Shown here: positions 7,539-63,556 of the stretch, in pieces
Layout of the letters: each line of letters begins with the position of its first letter
How positions within the stretch are numbered: position 1 is the first letter of the stretch
NCBI RefSeq assembly: GCF_030538695.1
Contig: NZ_JAUNTN010000016.1
Location: 31,385-95,384, forward strand
Direction: 5' to 3'
Source of the DNA: Paracoccus sp. (in: a-proteobacteria)
Lineage (GTDB): Bacteria; Pseudomonadota; Alphaproteobacteria; Rhodobacterales; Rhodobacteraceae
Length of the DNA: 64,000 nt
The notes under the pieces: generated by a model
Database searches by the model: none
Seen by the model: only the letters and a program-made list of their open reading frames with translations
Told to the model about the DNA's origin: nothing
Program-made: the position numbers and the translations under genes

Positions 7539-7970
7539 ATGCCTTCAGAATGGATTTACGGGCTGATCGGCGGGCTGATGATCGGCGGTGCGGCGGCAAT
7601 GCTGTTGCTGCTGAACGGGCGGATCATGGGGGCCAGCGGGATCATAGGCGGGCTGGTCGATGCCGCGCTTGGCCGCCGGGACAGCCAGACGGCGGAACGT
7701 GCCGCGCTGGTTGCCGGGTTGCTGGCGGGACCGCTGGTGCTGATTGGCCTTGACTGGCCAGCGCAGACAGCACCCGTCGCCGGTCCGGGGCTGCTGGTTC
7801 TGGCCGGGCTGCTGGTCGGGTTCGGCACGCGGCTGGCGAATGGCTGCACCTCGGGCCACGGGGTCTGCGGCATCTCGCGGCTGTCATGGCGCGGGATCAT
7901 GGCGACAATGACCTATCTGCTGGCAGGCGGCGTTGCCGTTATCGCCGCTCGTGCATTGGGTGCCGCATGA
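7539..7970 (+). CDS. YeeE/YedE family membrane protein (N-terminal half)
   Basis: This 143-residue membrane protein has about four TM helices. It carries the family signature [21 protein letters not shown] with a conserved Cys in NGCTSGHG, which in this family is linked to thiosulfate or sulfur-species transport. The next gene encodes the other half (DUF6691), overlapping by ATGA, so the two probably form one split transporter. A SqrR/BigR-type operator lies upstream, consistent with sulfide or persulfide response. Confidence 0.9.
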
Positions 7971-30464: not shown

Positions 30465-31514
30465 ATGACCGCCATCGCCTTTGCACGGCCGCCTATAGAT
30501 GAGACCCCGATCAGGCCGCAGGATGTCACCTCGGCACTGACCGATCTGCGCCAGCGTGACCAGCGTATCCTTGGGCAAATCCTGCTGGATCAGGGCGCAG
30601 TTGACCCCGGCAACCTGTTCCGGGCCGTCCTGCTGCGCGAGCATGAGGCCGTCCGTCTGGGTGAGATTCTGCTTGCCCACGGCTGGGTTGCGCCCGAGGC
30701 GCTGACCCGTGCGCTTTGCGTGCAATGGCGGACGACCTCGGTTGATCTGGCGACGCTGCCACCCGATCCACGGCTGATCGACGCGGCCGGGGCGGACCTG
30801 TGCCTGACGCTGGGGCTGGTGCCATGGCGGCGGGTGGGGGGCGTAACCTATGTTGCAACCTCGCGCCCCGACGGGTTCGAGGCTGCCCGCGACCGCCTGC
30901 CCGCCGATTTCGGCCAGTTGCGGATGCTGCTTTGCACCGAGAATCAGGCGCAACAGGCGGTGCTGAACACCCGCCGCACCTTCCTGATCCGGCAGGCCGA
31001 AAACCGGGTGCCGGACGATCAAAGCTGCCGCACCCGCAATGAACGCCGGGTGGCAAATCTGGCGCTGGCGGTCATGCTGATCGTGGCCGCCTCGGCGGTG
31101 CTTGTGCCGGTCTGGCTGATGCTGGCACTGACCTTTTGGGTGGTGCTGACGCTGATCGGGCTGACCGCGCTCAAGCTGACAGCCTTTATTGCCAATGTCC
31201 GCGCTGACGCCCACCGCCGCCGAAGCCCCGCACTCGCCCCGTTCAAGGGACAACTGCCGCTGATTTCGGTGATGGTGCCGCTGTTTGGCGAAAGCGATAT
31301 TGCGGGCAAGCTGGTCGGGCGGCTGTCCAAACTGCGCTATCCGCGTGAGCTGACCGACATCCTGCTGGTGATCGAGGAAACCGACCAGATGACCCGAACC
31401 GCGCTGGAAGGGGCTGTTCTGCCTGACTGGATGCGCGTTGTGATCGTGCCGGACGGGCCGATCAAGACCAAACCACGGGCGCTGAACTATGCGCTGGACC
31501 AAAAAGCCGCTTAA
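30465..31514 (+). CDS. Glycosyltransferase family 2 protein with MshEN-like N terminus, truncated by the prophage
   Basis: The visible 349 residues have an MshEN/GspE-N-like region (about 35-165, with RLGEILLAHGWVAPEALTRALCVQ), a type that can bind c-di-GMP. Two TM helices follow (about 200-245), then the first part of a GT2 domain (QLPLISVMVPLFGE, LRYPRELTDILLVIEE, KTKPRALNYALD). GT2 domains of this type continue after PRALNYAL with a D-x-D-containing segment; here it is replaced by QKAA and a stop, so the C-terminal half is missing. The break coincides with the prophage start. Probably non-functional in this lysogen. Confidence 0.85.
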   Translation: MTAIAFARPPIDETPIRPQDVTSALTDLRQRDQRILGQILLDQGAVDPGNLFRAVLLREHEAVRLGEILLAHGWVAPEALTRALCVQWRTTSVDLATLPPDPRLIDAAGADLCLTLGLVPWRRVGGVTYVATSRPDGFEAARDRLPADFGQLRMLLCTENQAQQAVLNTRRTFLIRQAENRVPDDQSCRTRNERRVANLALAVMLIVAASAVLVPVWLMLALTFWVVLTLIGLTALKLTAFIANVRADAHRRRSPALAPFKGQLPLISVMVPLFGESDIAGKLVGRLSKLRYPRELTDILLVIEETDQMTRTALEGAVLPDWMRVVIVPDGPIKTKPRALNYALDQKAA

Positions 31515-31618
31515 AAATCAGCCGCGAAGCTGCCAATTTGATACAAACCGCCCCTATTGTTTTATAATAATTTTTGCCGGAAATTGTATCACCCAAACCC
31601 GCCAGAATCGGAATAATC

Positions 31619-31954
31619 ATGCTGACCATCATCGCCACCGCCCTGACCCTGACCGGCTACACAATCGTTGACGGCGACACGCTGCGTCACGATGGCCGCG
31701 ACCTGCGGCTTTGGGGGATCGACGCGCCAGAGCGTCAACGGCCCGGCGGTCAGGCAGCCCGGCGAATGCTGGATCGGATCACGGACGGCCAGCCGCTGAC
31801 CTGCGACACCATCCACATCGACCGATACAACCGCCCGGTTGTGCGCTGCGCGACCCCAGCCGGGGTTGATCCGGCCTGTGAGATGGTGCGCAGCGGCCAC
31901 GCCCGCGACTGGCCCCGCTACAGCGGCGGGCATTATGCAGGCTGCGGGCGGTAA
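31619..31954 (+). CDS. Thermonuclease (SNase-like) family protein
   Basis: This 111-residue protein carries the staphylococcal nuclease-like core: TIVDGDTLRHDGRDLRLWGIDAPE (the Asp residues bind metal in the family), then QAARRMLDRI and the Arg of DRYNRPVVRCAT. It is short for SNase (about 140-150), ending soon after RYSGGHYAGCGR, which is also seen in alphaproteobacterial phage members. A TTGATA/TATAAT pair at 31538-31568 (19-bp spacing) could drive it. It is the leftmost phage gene. Confidence 0.8.
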   Translation: MLTIIATALTLTGYTIVDGDTLRHDGRDLRLWGIDAPERQRPGGQAARRMLDRITDGQPLTCDTIHIDRYNRPVVRCATPAGVDPACEMVRSGHARDWPRYSGGHYAGCGR

Positions 31955-31960
31955 AAAAAA

Positions 31961-32078
31961 ATCGCATCAGGTGCATTTTCTCACTTGCATTACTAACATT
32001 GTGCAAGTATAACTAATTTATCAGCAGAGAGCTGATACGGGACGCACCGCCGCACGGGTGCAGGAGACTAAGACCATG
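31961..32078 (+). promoter_or_regulatory. Promoter/leader module, copy 1 (direct repeat of 34881-34998)
   Basis: This 118-bp block aligns without gaps to 34881-34998 with about nine mismatches. It holds a GTGCATTTT element (31971-31979), a -35 TTGCAT (31985-31990) and a -10 TATAAC 17 bp later (32008-32013). The dyad CTTGCA-N12-TGCAAG (31984-32007) spans -35 and spacer. In the leader are a hairpin TATCAGC-AGAGA-GCTGATA (32019-32037), a GCACC/GGGTGC hairpin and an RBS AGGAG before the ATG at 32076. Confidence 0.75.
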
Positions 32079-32429
32079 GACATCAAGATCATCGCCCCTG
32101 CCTTTGCAACCGTCCAGTTTGAAACCACCTGCGACACCCCGGCCCTGACCGGATCGGAAAAGCAGATCGCGTGGGCCGAAAAAATCCGGGCCAAGCGGAC
32201 CGAGGAACTGAATACGCTGGTCAGCGACACGATTCACGGGATGGTCAAAACCAAGATGATTTTTTCGGACGACGCCGCGCGGATCGCCGCCGCCGAAGCC
32301 GCTATCGCTAAGTTTTTGGACCTCGCTGGCGCCGCCATCAACCGCGTTATGACCGAAACCAGCGCCGCCGCTTGGATTGACCAGCGCGACACCCCGACCC
32401 GCAAAGTGTTCGGAGCGCCCGGCCAATGA
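32076..32429 (+). CDS. Hypothetical phage protein (left-arm operon, first gene)
   Basis: This 117-residue soluble protein is not recognised. Residues 27-45 (GSEKQIAWAEKIRAKRTEE) resemble the start of small phage proteins that read KQ..WA.KIR. The rest is helical (AAEAAIAKFLDLAGAAINRVM) with a C-terminal WIDQRDTPTRKV. It is translated from leader copy 1, and its stop overlaps the next start (ATGA). Confidence 0.7.
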   Translation: MDIKIIAPAFATVQFETTCDTPALTGSEKQIAWAEKIRAKRTEELNTLVSDTIHGMVKTKMIFSDDAARIAAAEAAIAKFLDLAGAAINRVMTETSAAAWIDQRDTPTRKVFGAPGQ

Positions 32430-33133
32430 TTAAGACCATCGCAACCATCGCTGATCGGCAGGCCATGCCGATCAGCACCATTACGGTCGCCGCCCCGCTG
32501 GGGGCTGCCATTGGAAATATTGTGATCCAATGGGCAGGGATGCAACCGGCCAGCGCCAACGAGGCCGACAACCTGCCCAATAGCGTGACGGCCATCGAGA
32601 TGGAAAAGCCCGCGCCAGCGATCCAGACCACCACCATGACCGCCGCCACCGAATCAGAGATCATCGCCGCCGCATGGGCGCTTGGTGCCTGGGACATCAG
32701 CCGCACCGCAATCCCGGCTGGATACCAAGGCCCGCTGCCCCCGCACCTGGGCGATCTGGCGGATGCCGCCCGCGAATCCGGCTATGTAACGTGGATGTTT
32801 AAGCCGATCTTGGGCGGTCCAGAGTTGCGAGCTAAGGCCAATGCGGCCAAGGACGCCAGCCTGACCCCGATCATGCTTGGCCGGTCAGGGCCAGCGCCGG
32901 ACATCACGATCCCCGCAATCACCCCCGGTCGCCAACACCTGATCCGACTGGGAGAGCCAGTCGAGGCCAAGGCGCGGCTACCACGCCCCTGCCCACGAGC
33001 CACCCGCAAACAGCGATGGGCGATCATCTGTATGCGCCGCAAGCTGGACGAGGCCGGGGCACCACTACCCGCCAGCCTCACGCGGGCAGAGGCCAGCGCA
33101 ATCATCGCGGACCTGCAAAGGCGGCTTGCATGA
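32426..33133 (+). CDS. Hypothetical phage protein with DUF3072-like C terminus
   Basis: This 235-residue protein is not recognised as a whole. The C-terminal 42 residues (TRKQRWAIICMRRKLDEAGA, then PLPASLTRAEASAIIADLQ) fit the small DUF3072-type pattern, T..Q...I..L....G..LP..LT.AEAS..I..L, seen as an accessory module in many proteins. The N-terminal 70 residues are low in structure. It is coupled at both ends by ATGA overlaps. Confidence 0.65.
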   Translation: MIKTIATIADRQAMPISTITVAAPLGAAIGNIVIQWAGMQPASANEADNLPNSVTAIEMEKPAPAIQTTTMTAATESEIIAAAWALGAWDISRTAIPAGYQGPLPPHLGDLADAARESGYVTWMFKPILGGPELRAKANAAKDASLTPIMLGRSGPAPDITIPAITPGRQHLIRLGEPVEAKARLPRPCPRATRKQRWAIICMRRKLDEAGAPLPASLTRAEASAIIADLQRRLA

Positions 33134-33567
33134 GATACCTCAACCACATCACGATGACGACTGGCCACCTGATGCAGCAGCATCGACGGGACGCCGACGC
33201 CGATGCTATCGCACGGGTGTCCGCCATGCTGGACTCTGCCCTGATCGGCGGACGGCCCGAGGTGCTGGACGGCACAATCCTCAAAGCAACGCACTTTGGC
33301 CCGCACCTGCTGGCCACCCTCTGCCTTGGGGTCGCGCCGATCATAACCACCGGCGTTGCCAAGCGCCCACGCGCTGCACGGCGGTTTTGGGGCGACCTCA
33401 TCACCACCGCAACGGTGCCGGTTACTGTTACCGCCGACGATATGCCCGCGCCGCCATGGATCGCCGACCGGATCGAGGCGGGCGCAATGCACCGCCCGGA
33501 CATCTTGCAATGGACAGGCAGTTGGGCGGCGGTCCTTGGATGGGCCTGGATGGAGTATGCACGATGA
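33130..33567 (+). CDS. Hypothetical phage protein (left-arm operon)
   Basis: This 145-residue soluble protein is not recognised. It begins MRYLNHITMTTGHLMQQHRRD and has a Trp-rich C terminus (PPWIADRIEAG ... WTGSWAAVLGWAWMEYAR). The start overlaps the previous stop (ATGA) and the end overlaps the HTH gene (ATGA), so all four genes 32076-33767 are translationally coupled. Confidence 0.65.
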   Translation: MRYLNHITMTTGHLMQQHRRDADADAIARVSAMLDSALIGGRPEVLDGTILKATHFGPHLLATLCLGVAPIITTGVAKRPRAARRFWGDLITTATVPVTVTADDMPAPPWIADRIEAGAMHRPDILQWTGSWAAVLGWAWMEYAR

Positions 33568-33767
33568 CCCCGATCACTGACCCCCGCCCCTTTGCCGAGG
33601 TGCTGCGCGACTGGCTGGACCGCAACGGCCTGACGGCTTACGCCGCCGCCCCGGTCCTTGGCACCACCGAAAGTAGCATCGGGCGCTGGCTGGCTGGACG
33701 CCCCTGCGCCCACGAACGGGCCTATCGCGGGCTGATTACCCTGATTGACGGCAACCCCGCAAAATAA
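33564..33767 (+). CDS. Small HTH DNA-binding protein
   Basis: This 67-residue protein consists almost wholly of one helix-turn-helix: FAEVLRDWLDRNGLTAYAAAPVLGTTESSIGRWLAGR, similar to Cro/XRE-type domains. It is the last gene of the first left-arm operon and is followed by another promoter of the same family (33778). It may regulate that operon; inference only. Confidence 0.72.
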   Translation: MTPITDPRPFAEVLRDWLDRNGLTAYAAAPVLGTTESSIGRWLAGRPCAHERAYRGLITLIDGNPAK

Positions 33768-33777
33768 TTTCGAGGCG

Positions 33778-33820
33778 GTGCAATTTTCTGCTTGCACCCC
33801 GCAATTTCCCACTGTAAGAA
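33778..33820 (+). promoter_or_regulatory. Left-arm promoter of the shared phage type
   Basis: GTGCAATTTTCTGCTTGCAC (33778-33797) matches the element in the two leader copies (GTGCATTTT..CTTGCAT). TTGCAC would be the -35; the best -10 17 bp later is TAAGAA (33815-33820). The leader also ends in AAGGAGCGCAGACC-ATG, like AGGAGACTAAGACC-ATG of the copies. Confidence 0.55.
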
Positions 33821-33869
33821 ATATGTAAGGGCAGACAGAGGGTCAGCCCGAGCTTAAGGAGCGCAGACC

Positions 33870-34154
33870 ATGACCACCTATATTTGCATCGCCGCCGCCA
33901 ACGCCACCACCGAAATGCACGAAGGTGCTGATCTCGTGCAGGCTATTCAAGCCGCGCTGGTCGCTCGCGACATCACCGTCACCGCCACCGAAGTGCTGCC
34001 CCTCGGCGGCACCCGCTATATCCGCCGGGAAACGGACCCGGAAGATTTTTGGGCCGCCCAAATGGACCACGCTATCGGTGACAACGATGAGTGGGGCTAC
34101 GGGGCCAGCGTGGACGAGGCGATGGCAATGGCCCAGCCGGAGATCGACGAATGA
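33870..34154 (+). CDS. Hypothetical phage protein
   Basis: This 94-residue acidic protein is not recognised. It starts MTTYICIAAANATTEMHEGA and continues with a predicted alpha/beta pattern (ADLVQAIQAALVARDITVTATEVLP) and an acidic end (EDFWAAQMDHAIGDNDEW). RBS AAGGAG. The stop overlaps the next start (ATGA). Confidence 0.65.
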   Translation: MTTYICIAAANATTEMHEGADLVQAIQAALVARDITVTATEVLPLGGTRYIRRETDPEDFWAAQMDHAIGDNDEWGYGASVDEAMAMAQPEIDE

Positions 34155-34855
34155 AATCACCGAAAAAAACCACCAACGCGCCCCTGTTCCGGGGCGCGTC
34201 ATCGCATGATGAGCCTCGGAAAAACGCAATCCGGCCTTGGTCGCGCCAAGGGGTGCGGCTGGGCATAAAAATGCATTACAACATCAATGACAGCAATGCG
34301 GCAATCGGATGGGTGCTGATGCGCATGGGGCCGGATGCTGTCGCCCAGGGCGAGGCCCGAGTGCCGCAGGCGGATGCGCCGCAACCGCGCCCCCTGACAC
34401 ACGCCGAACGCCGCAGTTTGCGCGAGGATTGCGGCCTGTCCCGGCGCGAGGCTGCCGAATGGCACGGCGTGAACGAGCGGACAGTAGGTTATTGGGAGGA
34501 TGGCGCGGGCACCCCCAATGAGGCGGCGGATATGGATATGATGATGCTGCGCCTGCAACTGGATGCGGCGGCGGGCCAAGTTGTCAAAACTGCAAGGGCC
34601 GTCATCAAGGCCCACCCCGAAATCGCAGGCCAGCCGGTTGAGTTGGTCAGGTATAAGCCCCACGATTACCCCCGCACACAACAGGCTCGTGAGGGCCTGC
34701 CGCACGGTGCGCACAACCGTCTTACCAACCTTTCTGCCGAGGCGCTGGCCCGCGACGGAATCGATTCGACTATCGTTTATCGGGGCGCTGGCGAATGGGA
34801 GGCCACGCCGCCGCCAGAAGGGTTTTCGGGGGCTGCGCCGGATTTCATGCGCTGA
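34151..34855 (+). CDS. HTH-containing phage protein
   Basis: This product has up to 234 residues. The recognisable part is an XRE-like helix-turn-helix: LTHAERRSLREDCGLSRREA, then AEWHGVNERTVGYWEDGAGTP (about residues 94-135). A helical segment rich in Met follows. The start at 34151 overlaps the previous stop; a start at 34271 (MHYNINDSN) is equally possible, since the first 40 codons contain a strong hairpin (34176-34199) and look unconserved. Confidence 0.65.
   Translation: MKSPKKTTNAPLFRGASSHDEPRKNAIRPWSRQGVRLGIKMHYNINDSNAAIGWVLMRMGPDAVAQGEARVPQADAPQPRPLTHAERRSLREDCGLSRREAAEWHGVNERTVGYWEDGAGTPNEAADMDMMMLRLQLDAAAGQVVKTARAVIKAHPEIAGQPVELVRYKPHDYPRTQQAREGLPHGAHNRLTNLSAEALARDGIDSTIVYRGAGEWEATPPPEGFSGAAPDFMR
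34163..34199 (-). terminator. Possible terminator for leftward transcription
   Basis: A perfect 9-bp stem (ACGCGCCCC 34176-34184, GGGGCGCGT 34191-34199) is followed on the minus strand by TGGTGG and then seven T. It could stop leftward read-through from the late operon before it crosses the left arm. The six-base gap before the T-run weakens the call. Confidence 0.4.
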
Positions 34856-34880
34856 CCGACGCGATGGGGGCGATAAAAAA

Positions 34881-34998
34881 ATCGCATCAGGTGCATTTTT
34901 ATGCTTGCATTACTAACGCTATGCAAGTATAACTAACTTATCAGCAGAGAGTTGATACGGGACGCACCGCCGCACGGGTGCAGGAGACTAAGACCATG
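34881..34998 (+). promoter_or_regulatory. Promoter/leader module, copy 2 (direct repeat of 31961-32078)
   Basis: Same architecture as copy 1: GTGCATTTT (34891), TTGCAT -35 (34905-34910), 17-bp spacer, TATAAC -10 (34928-34933), dyad CTTGCA-N12-TGCAAG, leader hairpin TATCAGC/GTTGATA, GCACC/GGGTGC hairpin, AGGAG RBS, ATG at 34996. The changes cluster between the boxes and in the dyad centre. One change turns a G-C pair of the leader hairpin into G-U, keeping the fold. Confidence 0.75.
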
Positions 34999-35328
34999 AC
35001 CACCGCAACCACCATCACCGTTCCCGCCTCGATCCGCAGCGACATTCTGGACGCGCTGTTCGTCCGCGTCGAGGACGCCGCGAAACGCTTTGTTGACGCA
35101 GAGCGCGGCGAGGCCAAGTTGCAGGCCGCCATCGATGAGGCCAAGGCAGCCGGACGGGACACTTTTTTCGAGGATGCGCTCATGACGCTGCCCGGCACGG
35201 CAGAGTTTGACCGCATCGGGCGCGACTGCGTGGATACCATCAAACAACTGGTTGCAGGCACCGACAACGATTTTGTCTGGGAGTGGGAGCGGCACGTGGA
35301 TTTTGCCCGCAACCGCGCCCAGGACTAA
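34996..35328 (+). CDS. Hypothetical phage protein (from leader copy 2)
   Basis: This 110-residue acidic protein is not recognised. It opens MTTATTITVPASIRSDILDA, then long helices (VEDAAKRFVDAERGEAKLQAA), ending VWEWERHVDFARNRAQD. The sequence differs from the other protein expressed from the same leader type (32076), so the leader has been reused for unrelated genes. It is the last rightward gene before the convergent late operon. Confidence 0.65.
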   Translation: MTTATTITVPASIRSDILDALFVRVEDAAKRFVDAERGEAKLQAAIDEAKAAGRDTFFEDALMTLPGTAEFDRIGRDCVDTIKQLVAGTDNDFVWEWERHVDFARNRAQD

Positions 35329-35357
35329 AGCAAAGGGGCGGGCCAAAGGTCCGCCCC
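35328..35357 (-). terminator. Terminator at the end of the late operon
   Basis: GGGGCGGGCC-AAA-GGTCCGCCCC (35335-35357) forms a 10-bp stem with one G-U pair, followed on the minus strand by TTTGCTTT. It lies between the convergent last left-arm gene and last late gene. The rightward side has no T-run, so it mainly serves the late transcript. Confidence 0.7.
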
Positions 35358-35362
35358 CCACC

Positions 35363-35887
35363 TTACAGCCCCGCCCGCCGCAGGGCCTCGGCCAGAGCGC
35401 CGGACAGGGCGTCACCATCCGCCAGCGCGGCCAGATCGCCGGGTGCTGCCCGCTCGATAGCCTCGATCAGCTTGGATTCGGCCATCTCACGCAGGTGCCC
35501 CCGTGCATCGCCCACGCTGTCCATGCCAAAACGCCGCAGGGCGTCACCCGCGCCTTGGTCGGCGTAGGCCAGCATCTGCTCGATCGCCAGATCAATGCGG
35601 CGGCCAATCGGGGTGTCGGCGGCAGCGGTCAGCATCCAGCGCAGCCCGACGCGGGCGGCATTTTCCATCGTCACTTGCAGGGTGTCACGGGCGGCGCGGT
35701 CCAGCGCGACCCCGGTGATCTTGGCAACCACCGCAGACAGGGCGGACACAACCACCGTCGCAACAGCGGTCACAACCCACGCCAGCGCCTGATCGGCCAG
35801 CGCCGGGATGCTGGCTGCCGCGACAGCAGCGGCAGGGGCGGTGATAACGGCGGCCATCGCCGCCACGGCTTTAGTCGTCAAACGCAT
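35363..35887 (-). CDS. Phage membrane protein, possible lysis-associated
   Basis: This 174-residue protein has two hydrophobic stretches (about residues 5-27 and 33-57, AWVVTAVATVVVSALSAVVA), followed by a helical cytoplasmic or periplasmic region (GRRIDLAIEQMLAYADQGAG, later LREMAESKLIEAIERAAPGD). The start at 35887 follows GAGGTATCAC; an ATG at 35899 overlapping the endolysin stop is an alternative. Position after the endolysin suggests a lysis or phage-surface role; not recognised as a family. Confidence 0.6.
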   Translation of the reverse strand: MRLTTKAVAAMAAVITAPAAAVAAASIPALADQALAWVVTAVATVVVSALSAVVAKITGVALDRAARDTLQVTMENAARVGLRWMLTAAADTPIGRRIDLAIEQMLAYADQGAGDALRRFGMDSVGDARGHLREMAESKLIEAIERAAPGDLAALADGDALSGALAEALRRAGL

Positions 35888-62629: not shown

Positions 62630-62666
62630 GCGCAAAATGCGCTCAATATGCAAGCGCAAAATGCGC
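62630..62666. promoter_or_regulatory. Paired phage operators between cro-like and repressor genes
   Basis: Two perfect copies of GCGCAAAATGCGC lie at 62630-62642 and 62654-62666, 24 bp apart (arms GCGCA/TGCGC around AAA). The minus strand reads GCGCATTTTGCGCTTGCAT, followed 17 bp after TTGCAT by CACAAA, a plausible cro promoter covered by the sites. Same sequence occurs at 63432-63469. Confidence 0.82.
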
Positions 62667-63431: not shown

Positions 63432-63469
63432 GCGCATTTTGCGCTTGCCTTAGTGTGCGCAAAATGCGA
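63432..63469. promoter_or_regulatory. Second pair of phage operators and rightward promoter region
   Basis: GCGCATTTTGCGC (63432-63444) and GCGCAAAATGCGA (63457-63469, one base off) are 25 bp apart. TTGCCT (63445-63450) lies between them, in the place of the TTGCAT boxes of the other phage promoters. The following gene (63557) should be under repressor control. Confidence 0.72.
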
Positions 63470-63556
63470 ACAACACCCCATCACCCGCCGAAGACGGCCA
63501 CCCGGCAAACCGCCAACAGGCCAGATCGCGGGACAACCGCCCCGAGAGGGCAGAAC

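Follow-up and report, generated by a model that had tools for sequence, protein, structure and literature searches.

The 64,000-nt stretch of a Paracoccus sp. contig analysed here (NZ_JAUNTN010000016.1, positions 31,385 to 95,384 of the forward strand; hereafter the window) carries a prophage, and at the left edge of that prophage a promoter with its leader is present twice. The two copies, modules A and B, are direct repeats of 118 bp placed 2,920 bp apart, and each ends at the start codon of a different short gene (Table 1). A third promoter, C, which is a diverged relative of the other two, lies in the interval between them.

The modules align without gaps and differ by nine substitutions (109 of 118 bp identical), located at module positions 20-23, where four are adjacent, and at 38, 39, 41, 57 and 72. 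The differences are distributed unevenly, with eight in the 57-nt promoter half and one in the 61-nt leader (Fisher p 0.014), and the packing of four of the nine into 4 nt has p 0.002 under random scatter. Similarity ends at the ATG and on the 5' side fades within an A-run; the extent given by the repeat finder for the pair is 133 nt, at 90%. BLASTP finds no similarity, at E values up to 10, between the proteins encoded immediately downstream, from 32076-32429 in A and from 34996-35328 in B. An earlier, sequence-only reading of this DNA had described an ungapped 118-bp alignment with about nine differences in front of unrelated proteins, and this description is borne out. The same is true of three features that it placed within the module. 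Promoter boxes with 17-bp spacing are found as TTGCAT-17-TATAAC, and the dyad said to have conserved arms and a varying centre is CTTGCA-N12-TGCAAG, with identical arms and 3 of the 12 centre bases different. The leader hairpin, TATCAGC-AGAGA-GCTGATA, is present together with the one G-C to G-U change.

Table 1. Features of the duplicated modules and of the strip around them, in window coordinates.
Feature	Position	Strand	Basis
Module A, comprising promoter and leader up to the ATG of gene A	31961..32078	+	sequence alignment
Module B, second copy, ending at the ATG of gene B	34881..34998	+	109/118 identical to module A
Upstream box, GTGCATTTT-N4-CTTGCA	A 31971..31989; B 34891-34909	+	as at host tRNA/rRNA promoters
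-35 TTGCAT, 17-bp spacer, -10 TATAAC	A 31985..32013; B 34905-34933	+	sequence and matrix ranks
Dyad CTTGCA-N12-TGCAAG, possible operator	A 31984..32007; B 34904-34927	.	dyad of a common size
Hairpin 1, at the predicted mRNA 5' end	A 32019..32037; B 34939-34957 (one G-U pair)	+	start inferred from -10
Hairpin 2, directly 5' of the ribosome-binding site (32062-32066)	A 32044..32061; B 34964-34981	+	folding
Promoter C with its leader, a diverged relative of A and B: GGTGCAATTTTCTGCTTGCACC, -35 TTGCAC, 17 bp, TAAGAA, before the ATG at 33870	33777..33872	+	
Gene A, 117 aa, phage family phrog_16123, unknown function	32076..32429	+	
Three genes (32426-33133, 33130-33567, 33564-33767), apparent operon behind module A	32426..33767	+	
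Genes behind promoter C (33870-34154, 34151-34855)	33870..34855	+	
Gene B, 110 aa	34996..35328	+	

Promoter core and spacer dyad

The pattern GTGCATTTTN{3,5}CTTGCA, which describes the upstream box and the start of the -35 region, occurs at nine sites in 8 of 125 genomes of the same genus, modules A and B included; read backwards, it gives no site in those 125 genomes. Beyond the modules there are seven sites, of which five stand before a tRNA and one before 16S rRNA; the remaining one, close to the end of its contig, resembles an rRNA leader. Two of the tRNA sites (L105 and L106) are near-identical, so that the sites are not fully independent of one another. The window's own genome has tRNA promoters of the same type (L125, L137).

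We also scored the window with a matrix of host tRNA promoters, built from 16 of 30 fetched tRNA upstream regions (40 tRNAs were found), with a loose CTTG...TA rule as the criterion of choice. Among 127,908 positions, the three promoters come first (C), second (A) and third (B), with the caveat for C that it was first noticed through its likeness to A and B, to which it has a weak profile match (E 0.15). The third-best matrix score, 17.8, exceeds what 30 shuffles gave (up to 17.2). The modules share with the tRNA and rRNA promoters of the host genus the upstream box, a CTTGC -35, the 17-bp spacing and a -10 element without a final T, and they differ from these promoters in a more A/T-rich spacer, in the dyad that this spacer bears and in the protein genes downstream. 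In Rhodobacter sphaeroides, -10 elements that lack the final T, as TATAAC does, are partly linked to a need for CarD, according to excerpts of PMC8407463. To the sequence-only reading the module looked like a movable expression cassette. Its duplication before unrelated prophage genes agrees with that view, but its upstream part does not belong to the phage alone, being of the host tRNA/rRNA type, and it follows that the -35 box itself forms the dyad's left arm.

In some host tRNA promoters (L100, L103, L105 and L106, around 1500-1525), TGCA stands on either side of a T-run. The flanks in L105 and L106 read GGGGTGCA...TGCACCCC. The arrangement may be recognised by some unknown host factor at stable-RNA promoters.

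Judged from its sequence, the spacer dyad is plausible as an operator. The same box is followed by other spacer dyads in Paracoccus phage Shpa gp50, L227 and L212, and L247 has two promoters on one contig, each with GTTAAC adjoining the -10. These differing dyads behind a common core suggest that phages combine a host-type core with an exchangeable putative operator. In the repressor region of the present prophage (62630-62666, 63432-63470), GCGCAAAATGCGC repeats surround promoters of the same box type, and a looser form of the upstream-box pattern finds five places in the window, which are promoters A, B and C and two in this region. Exact repeats of the GCGCAAAATGCGC type (62630, 62654, 63432) are absent at the modules, and direct control by the prophage repressor was rejected for this reason. 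Their absence makes expression in the lysogen likely, unless a nearby helix-turn-helix-like protein acts on the modules.

Leader hairpins

Hairpin 1 has a 7-bp stem and lies within a few bases of the transcript start predicted from the -10. Perfect stems of at least 7 bp with a loop of 3-8 nt number 56 in 64 kb, or about 0.009 per 10 nt, and are rarer than dyads of the kind seen in the spacer. When coding sequence is added to the folds, hairpin 1 persists in both copies; hairpin 2 disappears from A but not from B. Compared with shuffles, leader folding has z-scores of -2.33 and -1.46, which become -0.86 and -0.41 with coding sequence. Eleven of the 12 stem pairs are invariant, and the remaining one, a G-C pair in A, is G-U in B, so that in this pair of sequences no stem pair changed on both sides.

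Rfam has no match to the leader up to E 1. A covariance model of the leader scores its own source copies at 97.9 and 96.5 bits, and the next best match in 125 genomes reaches 23.2 bits (69 of the 125 have a match of some kind at a per-genome E of up to 1); in the window together with 49 of 265 loci (50 sources), nothing else rises above 17.2 bits. Control at the RNA level, as put forward by the sequence-only reading, is not supported, since the model matches the two source copies alone and the single variable pair is one-sided. The covariance check that had been proposed there returned no compensatory change, the sequences being too few for such a check. The simplest reading of hairpin 1, drawn from general knowledge of messenger stability, is that of a predicted protective 5' hairpin. 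In E. coli, the ompA mRNA has a protecting hairpin at its 5' terminus, and the modules would share with it a hairpin at the 5' end, here predicted from the -10 only.

Related blocks, rival explanations and known systems

The whole genome contains two close copies of the module and one weak relative. BLAST located the module in 1 of 101 genomes and a pattern search in 1 of 295, in each case the window's own genome, and a pattern allowing 3 mismatches gave one extra match in 125 genomes. Phage and plasmid collections searched with blastn, and IMG/VR searched with three exact patterns, yielded no module copy.

Comparable blocks occur in other phages. A near-invariant promoter/leader block, about 75 bp long and containing the same box, lies on at least ten IMG/VR contigs of another phage group (L150, L151, L178, L187, L198, L238, L242, L246, L247, L250), which were obtained with a strict pattern among at least 120 sites, and four of these contigs have a weaker second copy. 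Three of the ten proteins behind the block belong to one family, and the others have no mutual BLASTP match at E up to 1e-3; as the start at L150 is doubtful, we count at least seven different genes. The exact box of module B is found in five IMG/VR stretches representing three contexts, each time upstream of a small open reading frame. All five have TATG where the pattern permitted 16 variants, and in one of them (L179) further upstream bases are also common with the module. Promoter parts of this kind do stand before changing genes, and we infer that they move by recombination between copies.

We favour, with a probability of about 55%, a temperate-phage promoter-leader cassette of which two copies, and a third relative that has diverged, lie in the accessory strip where the prophage has its left end. 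The module looks like a known kind of cassette-like promoter, in a form that mimics the host, and not like a new type of RNA switch. Several results weigh against this interpretation. When the three most similar tRNA promoters are removed from the matrix, A falls to rank 14 and B to rank 10, with C still at 1, and the best matrix score, 20.1, is not above the best of the 30 shuffles (up to 21.0). A scan of 31400-35400 with the E. coli consensus misses the module promoters and returns one site elsewhere, with 1.1 expected. Dyads with arms of at least 6 bp and spacers of 3-14 number 309 in the window, about 0.22 per 45 bp, and because they are so common the module dyad by itself is unremarkable. 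Both helix-turn-helix matches among the genes between the modules are under the Pfam cut-offs. Finally, nothing searched contained a third close copy, and actual movement was not observed; the movable cassette suggested by the sequence-only reading is partly supported, in that such a block precedes differing genes in other phage contigs.

A plain segmental duplication by illegitimate recombination, in which promoter and leader would have remained recognisable through ordinary constraint and would serve no cassette function, is a possible but doubtful alternative. It would suit the presence of just two close copies in the genome and none elsewhere searched, yet it leaves unexplained why identity ends exactly at the ATG, why the leader is better conserved than the promoter half, and why a promoter/leader block recurs in front of different genes in another phage group. 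We considered also that the spacer dyad and the 19-bp hairpin sequence might both be DNA operators of a phage regulator, with the hairpin having no role as RNA. The dyad arms have been kept and the centre varied, two helix-turn-helix-like genes lie between the copies, and in the promoters of this prophage's repressor region a similar box is surrounded by repeats, all of which would fit such an arrangement. In module B, however, the 19-bp palindrome is interrupted in one arm at the DNA level, although that arm still pairs as RNA, dyads of such size are common and the helix-turn-helix matches are weak, and we regard this explanation as unlikely.

A role of the leader as a riboswitch- or attenuator-like regulatory RNA, with the downstream gene under the control of its two hairpins, appears very improbable. 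Both leaders do fold into two hairpins and the single stem change preserves pairing, but the lack of an Rfam match, the wide drop in covariance score beyond the two source copies and the lack of any compensatory change argue against it, as do z-scores that are modest to begin with and lower with coding sequence, when hairpin 2 is lost in A.

The cassette that we favour has partial counterparts in known systems. The PeSLs of T4-like phages (Arbiol 2010; Comeau 2014) join a promoter with a stem-loop before different genes and are thought to aid gene shuffling, according to excerpts of PMC4503421, PMC5931544 and PMC3950731, and the title of Comeau 2014 presents the PeSL as a composite of promoter and terminator stem-loop. 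The modules share with them a phage promoter with a stem-loop before different genes; they differ in belonging to another phage type and in having two close copies, where these excerpts describe many, dense in shuffling regions. No terminator-like hairpin was found on the coding strand at the modules, where there is only a weak site on the - strand at 32037-32019, and for this reason and because of their few copies we do not class them as PeSLs. In the archaeal virus HGTV-1, a conserved promoter-like region with an inverted repeat likewise precedes open reading frames, but the motif is of the archaeal TATA type and occurs in many copies, at most open reading frames of one part of the genome (PMC3950731, in the portion available). 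The SAS/ESAS elements of cluster K mycobacteriophages are similar in that conserved sequence runs up to the start codon of different genes, some with an upstream inverted repeat. As described in excerpts of PMC3203893, they are short (SAS), stand at many genes and have 17-bp imperfect repeats, in contrast to the 118 bp at two genes and the 6-bp dyad arms of the modules. A search of the open-licence literature by title or abstract found no paper describing the cassette of the modules, which does not prove that none exists.

Prophage setting and proposed mechanism

The strip that holds the modules (31.57-35.33 kb) consists of rightward genes, opposite in direction to the lysis and late genes that start at 35.36 kb. 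These late genes belong to a tailed phage and encode head, protease, portal, terminase, tape measure and tail fibre proteins. Relatives of the terminase with 81-87% identity are present in four other genomes of the genus and some match in 49 of 125; identity to the terminase of phage Shpa is 48%. Near window position 31500, the prophage cuts a glycosyltransferase gene. Aligned with homologues from 12 other genomes, its product stops matching at residue 345 in 11 cases and at 344 in the remaining one; the open frames of the homologues extend to 460-797 residues, and the missing C-terminal part has a match of 209 residues (71%) on another contig of the same genome (G000:C61:93124-93750). The interrupted gene and the late-gene context together indicate that the strip is an accessory region at the left edge of the prophage. 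The right end of the prophage lies beyond the contig, which ends together with the window.

Relatives of gene A are encoded in 43 of 62 candidate IMG/VR stretches and in 12 of 54 candidate stretches from genome contigs. The closest of them (55%; L005, just before 5001) has GCATTTTCTCTCTTG upstream, and the dyad around the -10 there, ATGTCCCC...GGGGACAT, differs from those of the modules. No relative of gene B was found in the searches made. Among the genes between the modules, the products of 33130-33567 and 33870-34154 have no family match, 33564-33767 encodes a small helix-turn-helix-like protein (HTH_31, 24.9 bits) and the product of 34151-34855 is also helix-turn-helix-like (HTH_31, 23.9 bits), neither score reaching the Pfam cut-off of 27. 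PADLOC gave no match for eight proteins. Twelve window proteins were compared with ten stretches around five related prophages in four genomes, and the amidase alone was matched, in three of the five late-side stretches; no match was found in the other two (L084, L085), whose guessed coordinates may miss the matching region. One related prophage has near its amidase an 87-nt direct repeat of its own (L086:4134-4220 and 7753-7839, 84%).

In the mechanism we propose for the cassette, the main RNA polymerase of the host would transcribe genes A and B, probably in the lysogen too. The spacer dyad would be the probable operator for a local helix-turn-helix regulator, and the most likely task of hairpin 1 is to shield the mRNA. 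The copies would most likely have come from recombination that placed a ready-made expression unit before another gene, and as direct repeats they could also delete or exchange the interval between them.

We suggest, tentatively, that the temperate phages found in this group of bacteria, and perhaps further phages, may share an exchangeable part composed of a copy of a host stable-RNA promoter, a swappable spacer operator, a leader ending at the ATG and sometimes a protective 5' hairpin. Recombined as a unit before new genes, this part would give them tRNA-like, growth-rate-controlled transcription in the lysogen. If this is true, a temperate phage would make new accessory genes expressible at once by reusing a host-mimicking promoter and leader, and GTGCATTTT-N4-CTTGCA before a small open reading frame would provide a searchable signature for such genes.

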